From assembly GCF_024362805.1 (NCBI RefSeq), contig NZ_CP093299.1, positions 3,876,001 to 3,940,000 on the forward strand: a DNA stretch of 64,000 bases. The letters run 5' to 3'. The number at the start of each line of letters is the position of its first letter. The stretch's first letter is position 1. The DNA is from Salipaludibacillus sp. LMS25. Lineage in GTDB: Bacteria > Bacillota > Bacilli > Bacillales > Salisediminibacteriaceae. The notes beneath the pieces are model-generated. The model was not told where the DNA came from, searched no databases, and was given only the letters and a program-made list of their open reading frames with translations. Shown here in pieces: positions 26,737-31,060 of the stretch. The position numbers and the translations under genes are program-made.

Positions 26737-26973
26737 ATGGCGAAAAATAACGAGTCGCACACATTTGAGGAATCAATGGAAGCATTAGAAAACTTAGTGG
26801 AAAAATTAGAAAAAGGTGATGTTCCTCTCGAAGAAGCCATCACTATGTTTCAAGAAGGTATGACATTATCAAAAGAATGTCACGATCGCTTGCAAAAAGT
26901 AGAAAAGCAAATGGCTGAAGTTTTATCTGAGGATGGCGAAATTAGCAACTTCCAAGTAGAAGAGGAGTCTTGA
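26737..26973 (+). CDS. xseB: Exodeoxyribonuclease VII small subunit
   Basis: 78 residues, all helical: [21 protein letters not shown](L) then an acidic tail. It follows xseA by 15 bases, and its TGA overlaps the region just before the ispA start. Confidence 0.95.
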
Positions 26974-26975
26974 TA

Positions 26976-27860
26976 ATGGAAGCACAGATGGAGAAATTCT
27001 TAGCTCAGGAAAAAGTGGCTATCGATGAAAAACTGACTGAACACATAACCCAACTCAATGCTCCTGAATCACTAAAAGACTCGATGACTTACTCTTTGAA
27101 AGCAGGTGGTAAACGAATTCGTCCCATTTTATTACTAGCCACTCTTAAAGGATTTGGCAAAGATTTAAATAAAGGATATGATATTGCCTGTGCGATTGAG
27201 ATGATCCATACCTATTCATTAATTCATGATGACTTGCCAGCGATGGACGACGATGATTTACGACGAGGACAGCCAACAAACCATAAGGTCTTTGGAGAGG
27301 CCCTTGCTATCCTCGCAGGAGATGGGTTACTGACATACAGTTTTACAATTGTTTCTCAACTTCAAAATGTAGAAGATCACATTAAAATTGAGCTTGTTCA
27401 AAAAATATCTCAAGCGGCAGGTCCTAAAGGCATGGTTGCCGGCCAAGTTGCTGATATGGAAGCGGAGGGCCGAGATTTAGATTTAGAAGAATTACAAGAA
27501 ATTCATCATCGGAAAACGGGTGATCTTCTCTCGCTATCACTAGAGTGTGGTGCTCTATTAGCTGAAGCGTCACAAGAGGAAATGCATATATTAACACGAT
27601 TTGGGAAACATATAGGATTAGCTTTTCAAATAAAAGATGATTTACTGGACGTGGAAGGAGACGAAAATGTCTTAGGTAAACGAGTGGGTAGTGATGCCAC
27701 TAATGAAAAAAATACGTATCCTAAAATTCTTGGAGTGGAAAAGGCAAAAGAAACATTGACCTATCACTTAAACGAAGCACATAAGTTATTAGCACAGGTA
27801 GATATGGATCAAACACTTTTACGCCAATTGACGAACTATATAGGAGAAAGAATAAATTGA
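26976..27860 (+). CDS. ispA: Farnesyl diphosphate synthase (geranyltranstransferase)
   Basis: 294 residues. First Asp-rich motif in LIHDDLPAMDDDDLRRG and second in KDDLLDVEGD, with GGKRIRP upstream. It makes farnesyl diphosphate for undecaprenyl and quinone synthesis. ATG 26976 is used because AGGAG (26963-26967) is eight bases upstream; a TTG six bases earlier is less likely. The gene directly precedes OLE RNA, its conserved position. Confidence 0.96.
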   Translation: MEAQMEKFLAQEKVAIDEKLTEHITQLNAPESLKDSMTYSLKAGGKRIRPILLLATLKGFGKDLNKGYDIACAIEMIHTYSLIHDDLPAMDDDDLRRGQPTNHKVFGEALAILAGDGLLTYSFTIVSQLQNVEDHIKIELVQKISQAAGPKGMVAGQVADMEAEGRDLDLEELQEIHHRKTGDLLSLSLECGALLAEASQEEMHILTRFGKHIGLAFQIKDDLLDVEGDENVLGKRVGSDATNEKNTYPKILGVEKAKETLTYHLNEAHKLLAQVDMDQTLLRQLTNYIGERIN

Positions 27861-27901: not shown

Positions 27902-27931
27902 TTGTCTGACCTGTTTTATACGTGCTATAAT
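27902..27931 (+). promoter_or_regulatory. Likely promoter of OLE RNA
   Basis: TTGTCT (27902-27907) and TATAAT (27926-27931) are 18 bases apart. Transcription would begin within a few bases of the predicted 5' end of the RNA. OLE may also be cut from the longer operon transcript. Confidence 0.65.
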
Positions 27932-27936
27932 AGGTA

Positions 27937-28518
27937 AGGTGAGTGGTGCAGTATTCTAGTCGGTTCTCCATTCTCGAAAGCGGGCCTAAAAATCCGCTAA
28001 AGGGCACATCGATGAAGTTCCTAGTCTTGGCTTGAGGCGCCCAGCCTTGGGTCCTGACTGGGAGTAAAGGCTGGGGGGCGATCCACAATGGCATGTGGGC
28101 GATGACCCTCTAGCCGCGGAGGCCCCTATTCATGGTACCGTTAAGCAACGGCAGTTATGGCTAGGGGTATGAACCTGTGTTGCAAGTATGGGAGCTTGTG
28201 AGCAGCGTAGCCTGCCTTGAGTGGAATTTGAGGGGATTATGGATGCTAGGTTGTAGTTAAGCAATCATCCATATGAAATCATTTCTGCAAAAGAGGATAG
28301 AGAATGGTAAGAACTGTTGAGGAAAACTCCTAGACTGTTCCACCGGACATTTAGAGGGGATTATAGTGCGTTCTAAGTGGTAATCCAGTCTGACGCTTGG
28401 TGACAACGTCAAGATGAGTTTAAAGGGAAACCACCACAGTGGCGACGCTGAGGTACTTGTCTGGGAAAACCTACTGGACCTAAGGCGCAGTTTTTACTCT
28501 TTAAATGACCACTCGCCT
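27937..28518 (+). ncRNA. ole: OLE RNA (ornate large extremophilic RNA)
   Basis: About 582 bases of GC-richer, non-coding, hairpin-dense sequence between ispA and an OapA-like gene, the diagnostic OLE context. The ends are set by an 11-bp helix: AGGTGAGTGGT (27937-27947) with ACCACTCGCCT (28508-28518). Internal helices include ATGGATG/CATCCAT (28240-28274 region), GGATTA/TAATCC (28358-28384 region) and TGACG/CGTCA (near 28392-28412). GAGGGGATTAT occurs twice (28231 and 28356). OLE forms a membrane-associated ribonucleoprotein with OapA and is linked in Bacillus halodurans to ethanol, cold and magnesium tolerance. I recognise it by size, context and general look, not by alignment; the short frames inside it are not genes. 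Confidence 0.9.
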
Positions 28519-28546
28519 CATACATAGAAAAGAGATTGATGATATA

Positions 28547-29161
28547 ATGAAAGAATCTATGAAAAAATCATTAAACTGGAGTATGATTATAGCCGTTATC
28601 ACGTTTGTGCTGGCGGCTATTTTTTCCATTGTCTCCACAACGATACTAAGTGGTGTGGCATGGGGCGTTGGGATGTTGATCGTCTTTTTGATTGTCCTGT
28701 TAGGGGTTATTTCAGACACGATAGGGGTGGCTGCCACAGCTGCTGCTGAGAAACCATTTCACGCTATGGCGGCAGAAAAGGTGCCAGGAGCTAAACAAGC
28801 TGTTCTCATCGTGAGAAATGCCGATAGATTTTCTAATTTCACGAATGATGTTATTGGAGATATCGCAGGGGTAATAAGTGGTACCGCCTCTACTTATGTC
28901 GTCATCCAGCTTGCCATGCAAATGGGGCATGCAGAAGGGTCTATCCTGCAGTTTGTCATTTCTATTATTTTTACAAGTGTAGTAGCAGCGCTTACGGTTG
29001 GCGGAAAATCAGTTGGTAAAACACTGGCGATACAGTACGCCACAGAGATCATCTTTCAAGTGGGTAGATTATTTTACTTTTTAGAGGTAAAATTGAAGTT
29101 AACAATTTTTAAAGGGAAAAAGCGCAAACAAAATGGAAAGAAGAACAATAAAAGAAAGTGA
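28547..29161 (+). CDS. oapA: OLE-associated membrane protein OapA
   Basis: 204 residues from the ATG at 28547. An in-frame ATG at 28505 lies inside the terminal helix of OLE RNA and has no ribosome site, so it is rejected. Four membrane segments are predicted (about 10-30, 33-55, 104-124 and 130-150 of this product). A central soluble segment reads DTIGVAATAAAEKPFHAMAA and NADRFSNFTNDVIGDIAG, which recalls DUF21/CNNM-type transporter domains. The tail is extremely basic (KGKKRKQNGKKNNKRK), suited to RNA contact. OapA recruits OLE RNA to the membrane. It is followed by dxs nine bases later. Confidence 0.88.
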   Translation: MKESMKKSLNWSMIIAVITFVLAAIFSIVSTTILSGVAWGVGMLIVFLIVLLGVISDTIGVAATAAAEKPFHAMAAEKVPGAKQAVLIVRNADRFSNFTNDVIGDIAGVISGTASTYVVIQLAMQMGHAEGSILQFVISIIFTSVVAALTVGGKSVGKTLAIQYATEIIFQVGRLFYFLEVKLKLTIFKGKKRKQNGKKNNKRK

Positions 29162-29170
29162 GGGTTTTTC

Positions 29171-31060
29171 TTGGATTTGCTCAGTATAAAGGATCCAGTA
29201 TTTTTAAAAAAATCCAGCAATAAAGATCTAGAAGAACTTGCTCAAAAAATTCGTGAATTTCTTATTGGTAAACTGTCTGTAACAGGTGGCCATCTCGGCC
29301 CTAATCTCGGTGTCGTGGAACTTACTCTCGTCCTTCACCAATTATTTAATAGCCCGAATGATAAATTTCTTTGGGATGTTGGCCATCAAGCATATGTCCA
29401 TAAAATAGTGACAGGACGAGCGGATCAGTTTGATAAGCTTAGACAGTACCAAGGTTTATGTGGTTTTCCAAAAAGATCAGAAAGCGAACATGATGTATGG
29501 GAGACAGGTCATAGCTCTACCTCATTATCAGCAGCTATGGGCATGGCGTTAGCAAGAGACTTAAAAGGTACTGAAGAGACGATAATACCAGTTATAGGGG
29601 ACGGTGCTTTAACGGGGGGTATGGCCTTGGAAGCGCTTAACCATATTGGGCATGAGCAGACAGATATGATCGTTATTTTAAATGATAATGAAATGTCTAT
29701 TGCTCCGAATGTAGGCGCAATTAATACGATGCTAGGTAGAATGCGGACGGCGGGTAAATATCAACGGGCAAAAGATGACCTTGAAATGCTCATTAAAAAA
29801 ATCCCTGCATTTGGTGGACGCCTTGCTGCTACTGCAGAACGTGTTAAAGATAGTCTTAAATATTTACTCGTTTCTGGCATGTTTTTTGAAGAATTAGGTT
29901 TTACGTACTTAGGACCTGTGGACGGGCATGACCTTGAAGATCTAAAAAGCAATATAACGTACGCAAGAAAAACAAAAGGGCCTGTCCTTGTACATGTTAT
30001 TACAAAGAAAGGAAAAGGTTATGCACCTGCTGAAAATGATGCGAAAGGAACGTGGCATGGCCTTGGTCCTTATAAAATTGAATCTGGTGAAGTGGTAACA
30101 AAACCTGGACCGCCTAGTTACAGTGGTGTATTTGCTAATACATTAAAACGTTTAGCTAAAAAAGACGACAGGATCGTGGCCATTACAGCGGCAATGCCAG
30201 GAGGGACGAAGCTGGATTCTTTTGGGGCCGAGTTTCCTGATAGAATGTTTGACGTAGGGATCGCTGAACAGCATGCGACTACGATGGCAGCAGGTCTTGC
30301 AGCGCAAGGTATGAAGCCTGTCTTTGCTGTTTACTCAACATTTTTACAGCGCGGCTATGATCAACTTGTTCATGACGTATGCCGTCAAAATTTAAATGTT
30401 TTCTTCGCTATTGATAGGGCAGGTCTTGTAGGAGCTGATGGAGAAACACATCAAGGTGTTTTTGATATTTCTTACCTTCGTCATCTTCCAAATATGACAA
30501 TCCTTAATCCGAAAGATGAAAATGAATTACAGCACATGATTTATACAGCGACGAAATATGAGGATGGTCCAATTGCTGTCAGGTATCCTCGTGGGGGCGG
30601 CGCCGGTTTAAAAATGGATAGCGAGTTAAAAGAAATTCCAATAGGCCAATGGGAAGTCCTTCGAGAAGGATCAGACCTATCGATCCTTACATTTGGTACG
30701 ATGATTCCTGTTGCTTTGGAAGCAGCTGAACGGTTATCTAGTCAAGGGATTCATGTAGAAGTCGTTAATGCTCGTTCAATTAAGCCTTTAGACCACTCTA
30801 TGCTAAACCAATTGATCAAAGAAGAGAAACCGATTATGACTGTTGAAGAAGCAGCTCTTTTAGGTGGATTCGGCAGTGCTGTATTAGAATATTTGAATGA
30901 AAAAAATGCCCGAACAATTATTATGGAACGCCTAGGAATTCCAGACCGATATATTGAGCATGGCAGTGTACCACAATTATTGGAAGAAATTGGTTTGACG
31001 TCAGAAAATGTGGTGGCACGCATCCAGCAAATGCTACCAAAGAAACGAAAACGGGCCTGA
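29171..31060 (+). CDS. dxs: 1-deoxy-D-xylulose-5-phosphate synthase
   Basis: 629 residues, TTG start behind GTGAGGG. Thiamine diphosphate motif [20 protein letters not shown] ... [17 protein letters not shown] near residue 62; [18 protein letters not shown] in the transketolase pyrimidine-binding domain. First enzyme of the MEP isoprenoid pathway, functionally linked to IspA upstream of OLE. Confidence 0.97.

Follow-up and report, generated by a model that had tools for sequence, protein, structure and literature searches.

Can the particle built on an OLE RNA dispense with one of the loops through which the RNA dimerises? The question is raised by the gene pair of an OLE RNA and its protein partner OapA in Salipaludibacillus sp. 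LMS25, located in a window of 64,000 nucleotides (nt), which is the whole stretch of DNA analysed here (contig NZ_CP093299.1, positions 3,876,001 to 3,940,000 of the forward strand; coordinates without a prefix are those of the window). In Halalkalibacterium halodurans, as published, OapA anchors OLE RNA in the membrane, the RNA is bound by OapB, OapC and, for some stresses, bS21, and the particle becomes necessary in the cold, in alcohol, at high Mg2+ and on a poor carbon source. The Clostridium acetobutylicum OLE RNA forms a dimer in cryo-electron microscopy (cryo-EM), held by the bridges B1 (L4-L4), B2 (L5, L6, L7) and B3 (L9.3-L9.3) (PMC12286853). In B3 the tips of P9.3 kiss through a GGCC loop, for which GAUC or AGCU occur as covarying alternatives (PMC12286853). 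In the window this loop is missing.

Loss of the P9.3 kissing loop

A preliminary description, made from the sequence alone, had placed an OLE RNA at this locus, and the Rfam covariance model bears this out. RF01071 (OLE) matches positions 27927-28528 of the + strand over its full length (cmscan, model positions 1-616 of 616), with 495.6 bits and an expect value (E) of 1.3e-143 against a gathering score of 50. At gathering scores the only other Rfam match in the 64 kb is one tRNA, and the Rfam model scan recovers OLE as a single copy in the 4.53 Mb genome. The P9 arm of this RNA, whose alteration the preliminary description does not mention, carries this apical hairpin:

28238-28273, + strand: shortened apical P9 hairpin in place of the usual P9.3 with GGCC (B3); loop AGUUAA, bulge CUAG

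We found OLE in all 35 genomes of the window's GTDB family and in 98 of 150 genomes sampled across the order, the order scan using stricter Infernal filters that lose some weak matches. Below, the family is compared with its sister family f28 (4 OLEs), the two together making up the clade (39 OLEs), and with the 90 other OLEs. Measured between two conserved anchors, the P9 arm is 67-103 nt long in the family (median 87; 35/35 measured) and 96-113 nt in the other families of the order (median 106; 94/94 measured), where 89 arms contain GGCC. The five that do not are L135, whose loop carries another palindrome, ACCGGU, and the four f28 genomes, with arms of 96-100 nt. With f28 left out, GGCC is present in the arm of 89 of 90 OLEs; minimum-energy fold prediction, on which all loop placements rest, puts it wholly in a hairpin loop in 85 of them, partly in 2 and elsewhere in 2. 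No such placement wholly in a predicted hairpin loop is found among the OLEs of the family (0/35) or of f28 (0/4), and the sole family member with the letters GGCC (L102) has them mostly in a stem. P9.3 with GGCC is a feature of most OLE members and not part of the Rfam definition.

In a tree of the OLE core with P9 removed (560 columns, 129 sequences) the family is monophyletic (0.995), as is f28 (0.993), and both are joined in one clade (0.928). Because the family and f28 form one clade and the f28 P9 resembles that of the family, a single loss of P9.3 is the simplest account. The 80 named loci show a matching division. Ranked by OapA, the nearest 11 share 75-83% identity, against 67% for the next in line, and their arms measure 69-91 nt; among them the letters GGCC occur in L009 alone, there largely within a stem. 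The remaining 69 all have GGCC and arms of 99-136 nt. This division, made at L018 by OapA identity, was chosen after the arms had been seen; being post hoc, and probably drawing on shared species, the named-loci counts are not independent of the family counts.

RNAalifold yielded no useful apical consensus for the P9 arms of the clade, whose alignment is gappy. One OLE (L218, in G152), from a genome that is 83% complete, scores only 253 bits and has a P9 region unlike that of its neighbours; perhaps it is a degenerate copy or a variant. In the literature searched, from which supplements, subscription papers and a second cryo-EM study lay outside, an OLE loss confined to P9 is nowhere described; the one paper found to name both OLE RNA and genera of this group, PMC6704655, is a soda-lake metagenome study. 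The clade-wide loss of the B3 loop, confined to P9, is what this analysis adds.

Elements retained in the OLE RNA

The loops assigned to the other two bridges, and the P3/P3.1 helix, are located as follows:

27985-27995, + strand: L4 A-rich loop with flanks, conserved; bridge B1 (PMC12286853)
28039-28044, + strand: L5 loop GCCCAG, conserved; one side of bridge B2
28086-28095, + strand: L6 loop CAAUGGCAUG, conserved bar one U/A position; other side of bridge B2
27962-27975, + strand: P3/P3.1, 5' strand; fixed spacing and covariation
28300-28315, + strand: P3/P3.1, 3' strand; 8 base pairs (bp), UA bulge, 6 bp

Within the family, L4 and the L5 loop GCCCAG are at least 95% conserved in each column, and so is L6 except at the one U/A position. 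The same columns are conserved outside the family, apart from that L6 position and, in the L4 stretch, its first base. P7 and P8 have median lengths of 48 and 27 nt in the family (35/35), compared with 50 and 29 nt in the others (81/90 measurable).

Of the 129 OLEs, 128 have exactly 24 nt from CUAGUC to CUAAAAAUCC in L4. In the P3/P3.1 helix 1354 of 1508 cells hold standard pairs, formed by 116 distinct strand pairs; slid partners give 545-876 (36-58%), and 500 shuffles, which ignore kinship, give a mean of 1164 and a maximum of 1195. A 2025 review proposes that the P3/P3.1 helix crosses the membrane (PMC12265935). Its fixed length and free sequence fit a membrane-spanning helix without proving one, and fit any rigid spacer equally well.

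P6 of H. halodurans carries a perfect anti-Shine-Dalgarno mimic, CCUCCU, noted for bS21 (PMC12054373). Among the loci covered (L001 and L091-L218) 128 of 129 OLEs were measurable; 3 of these, and 0/35 in the family, have an exact CCUCCU in P6, which lies at about 28060-28125 in the window. Its rarity agrees with the mutants of PMC12054373 that still bound bS21 with the letters of the mimic changed and the pairing kept.

Comparison with known OLE systems

The system resembles OLE/OapA/OapB/OapC of H. halodurans, whose features we took from papers and not from its sequence, in the RNA family, in oapA directly downstream, in separate oapB and oapC genes and in a promoter of its own; it differs in the short P9, the missing GGCC kissing loop and the lack of an exact CCUCCU in P6. 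With the C. acetobutylicum homodimer it shares the L4 and L5/L6 contact loops, but bridge B3 through L9.3 is missing (PMC12286853). Shortening of P9 is known from OLE variant 1 (TANB77; Fernando and Breaker 2024, PMC11332333). In that variant, however, P7 and P8 are short as well and the OapB site is often missing, and variant 2 (RF39) is without P7 and P8 (PMC11332333), whereas the window's OLE keeps P7 and P8 at normal length and a P13 that fits the Rfam consensus, and the genome encodes OapB. P9 alone is shortened, which sets the window's OLE apart from both variants. Since bit scores (390, 310 and 235, with a model of its own) decide the classes in PMC11332333, a loss confined to P9 would probably fall into its full-length class, insofar as scores from differing models can be compared.

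Extent, promoter and gene neighbourhood

27938-28518, + strand: OLE RNA in its predicted mature form (about 581 nt, with both ends inferred)
27938-27947, + strand: closing helix of the minimum-free-energy fold, 5' strand, pairing with 28508-28517
28508-28517, + strand: closing helix of the minimum-free-energy fold, 3' strand
27902-27931, + strand: sigma-A-type promoter signature of ole; -35 TTGTCT at 27902-27907, 18-nt spacer, extended -10 TGC-TATAAT with the hexamer at 27926-27931
26970-27860, + strand: ispA, farnesyl diphosphate synthase (NF045485), upstream neighbour
29171-31060, + strand: dxs, 1-deoxy-D-xylulose-5-phosphate synthase (TIGR00204), downstream neighbour

We placed the 5' end of the RNA from the promoter position and the 3' end from the closing helix. 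The structured RNA of 582 bases that had been proposed between ispA and dxs thus reappears with a predicted extent of 581 nt, between the two neighbours named, and its fold lies 5.3 standard deviations below dinucleotide shuffles (0/100 shuffles as stable). The closing helix, 10 bp joining the ends of the RNA, is part of the minimum-energy fold, yet its strands are unpaired in the Rfam model. On the downstream side lie oapA, dxs, tlyA and argR; on the upstream side, besides ispA, are frames resembling nusB, folD, xseA and xseB. As a whole, the locus is an ordinary, well-published OLE ribonucleoprotein (RNP) gene pair.

The ole promoter signature agrees with the consensus at 10 of 12 positions and has TG ahead of the -10. 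Three promoter-like sites were found in the 1.7 kb scanned against 3.9 expected, so that the lone match is not significant and its support comes from recurrence. An exact TATAAT lies at most 40 nt upstream of the RNA in 27/35 family OLEs (3.7% in base-shuffled upstream sequences) and in 43/90 other OLEs of the order (5.1%). The TGn extension accompanies 28/32 family sites and 68/88 others, counting sites with at most one mismatch. The distance from these sites to the RNA varies, being 11 nt in 22/32 family sites and more broadly distributed outside the family. A promoter belonging to ole itself has already been reported in H. halodurans (PMC9723947).

OapA and the partner proteins

28547-29161, + strand: oapA, 204-aa protein with a DxxxD motif at residues 101-105

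The open frame of oapA spans 28505-29161. A start at 28505 was rejected as not conserved in six close relatives (L008, L009, L010, L011, L015 and L018), in which the frame stays open for just 0 or 1 codons ahead of the aligned ATG; the start at 28547 given in the preliminary description stands. The search for OapA homologues that it had suggested recovered relatives, the nearest named ones in Salipaludibacillus, Alkalicoccus and Evansella, and OLE anchors lie upstream of oapA in 80/80 named loci, including L035, which stricter OLE anchors missed and Rfam confirmed. From the 3' end of the Rfam OLE match to the start of oapA there are 18 nt in the window (28529-28546) and 186 nt in L008 (3815-4000), so the spacing differs among relatives. 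Residues D101 and D105 are invariant in 42/42 proteins. The strongly basic tail that had been expected of OapA is real, but it differs between relatives and therefore does not define the protein: the OapA of the clade ends in a long Lys/Arg-rich tail (29110-29161 in the window; L008-L018), and many of the 42 relatives have a short or dissimilar one.

The suspected likeness to CNNM/DUF21 proteins is visible both in weak profile matches and in the predicted fold. The predicted OapA structure, a model and not a topology prediction, contains four helices of 27-34 residues and shorter ones, and its best match is to the CNNM/CorB Mg2+ transporters. CNNM profiles match 26/42 OapA proteins at E <= 0.1 (best 1.4e-6), the window's OapA standing outside these at E 0.15. 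Its score against PF01595 (12.2 or 16.8 bits) is below the Pfam gathering cut-off of 28.4, so we regard OapA as having a related fold and not as a member of PF01595. No NCBIfam model matches it, and no solved structure is related to it by sequence (best E 0.78, an unrelated protein). OapA thus shares its predicted transmembrane fold with CNNM/CorB/MpfA, but with 204 aa it is too short for CBS or CorC domains, and it has the DxxxD motif, said to be absent from CNNM domains (PMC11332333).

A look for oapB and oapC elsewhere in the genome, also suggested at the outset, found both. OapB is a KOW protein (L007:1474-1776) homologous to the OLE-bound crystal structure 7k9b (E 4.1e-32); the frames on either side resemble map and infA. 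OapC/YbxF is an L7Ae-like k-turn protein (L003:1489-1737) that matches 3v7e (E 1.4e-24) and 4lck, 'Ribosomal protein YbxF' (E 2e-24), and by homology is predicted to bind OLE; its flanking frames resemble rpoC and rpsL. A bS21 gene is also present in the same genome, away from ole.

Probable dimerisation without bridge B3

We consider it probable that this is an OLE RNP locus, that the lineage's OLE RNA would still dimerise through L4-L4 (B1) and L5-L6 (B2), and that a single event, in the ancestor shared by two families, removed the P9.3 kissing arm (B3). As the B3 arm is gone while B1 and B2 pairing appears to be kept, B3 would not be essential for the particle. The best reading, inferred in part, is a working OLE particle with a dimer that no longer uses B3; both the continued dimerisation and the functional neutrality of the P9 loss are inferred. 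Following the literature, OapA would provide a path or sensor for divalent ions of the CNNM type, with OLE RNA as the regulatory part, in the role that CBS/CorC domains play in MpfA-type transporters.

Three sets of observations weigh against this reading. The sequence of L7, which one cryo-EM model also assigns to B2, is not conserved. Exclusion between OLE and MpfA does not hold in this order, where coexistence is common: CNNM matches above the cut-off occur in 145/150 genomes, and in 93/98 OLE-positive compared with 52/52 OLE-negative ones, counts that record presence or absence of matches irrespective of CBS/CorC domains and copy number. The five genomes without CNNM above the cut-off are all OLE-positive (G000, G001, G118, G139 with no match, and G165, taken as the fifth from a weak E of 5.5e-4); the first is the window's own, with none in the whole genome and OapA as the best CNNM match. 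The difference in CNNM-lacking genomes (5/98 vs 0/52) is weak. MpfA exclusion was dropped as local support, the published anticorrelation being invisible as presence/absence in the order. Finally, palindromes persist in the P9 arms of the clade: in the central 20 nt those of at least 6 nt occur in 19/39 (shuffles 26%) and those of at least 8 nt in 10/39 (7%), and the clade's P9 could be making some other contact. Palindromes of at least 4 nt are found in 31/39 clade arms (shuffles 72%); in the non-clade arms they are found in 90/90 (72%), and those of at least 6 nt in 61/90 (24%). The window's own arm, with bulge CUAG and loop AGUUAA, has only short palindromes, as in shuffles. The CUAG bulge was tried as a new self-kissing site and dropped, the palindrome being broken in several members.

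Such a contact could mean that the kissing interaction was swapped and not lost: in the ancestor a palindrome of the GUAUAC type (at its longest UUGUAUACAA) would have taken the place of GGCC, in a shortened arm that still self-pairs between two RNAs, and it would then have decayed in the window's genus. GUAUAC is present in the P9 arm of 4/4 f28 OLEs and 11/35 family OLEs (g3 3/3, g5 7/9, g8 1/1), against 4/90 others of the order; with 15/39 clade arms carrying it, a swapped kissing loop is possible in part of the clade, and the excess of palindromes of at least 8 nt over shuffles points the same way. However, GUAUAC is found in 0/8 of the window's genus, and in 0/2 of g4, and the other genera of the family lack it altogether; in 8/39 arms the central 20 nt contain no palindrome as long as 4 nt, and the predicted f28 folds put part of the palindrome in a stem. 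The rows are moreover related, so that the counts, which ignore kinship, represent few independent events. On balance we think a swap doubtful.

Less likely still is a monomeric OLE in this lineage, in which case the published dimer would be peculiar to other lineages or to RNA-only preparations. All 39 clade genomes lack the B3 loop, as a monomer would allow, but the B1 loop and the L5-L6 loops of B2 are essentially unchanged, which is hard to explain without a contact unless they have intramolecular or protein roles. That the whole region is merely a long cis-acting leader of oapA is hardly credible: the oapA start lies about 30 nt past the closing helix and a simple scan finds no terminator there on the + strand, but published genetics and binding have RF01071 working in trans as an RNP RNA (PMC9723947, PMC11332333), named relatives vary in the spacing between OLE and oapA, and OLE has a promoter signature of its own.

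Implications

The named relatives of the window's organism within the Bacillales belong to salt- or alkali-loving genera. For a dimer that has done without B3 since the common ancestor, the wider reading is that otherwise full-length OLEs of two sister Bacillales families lost the P9.3 arch once and dimerise on B1 and B2 alone, the arch being a separable module that might, for example, join or cluster particles; we regard the chances of this as evenly balanced. The loss of one bridge with the others kept shows which contacts evolution retains, and the clade supplies natural RNAs for asking whether the P9 arch serves dimerisation or stress tolerance. If the dimer is indeed free of B3, the lineage would be a natural deletion experiment on the quaternary structure of OLE.
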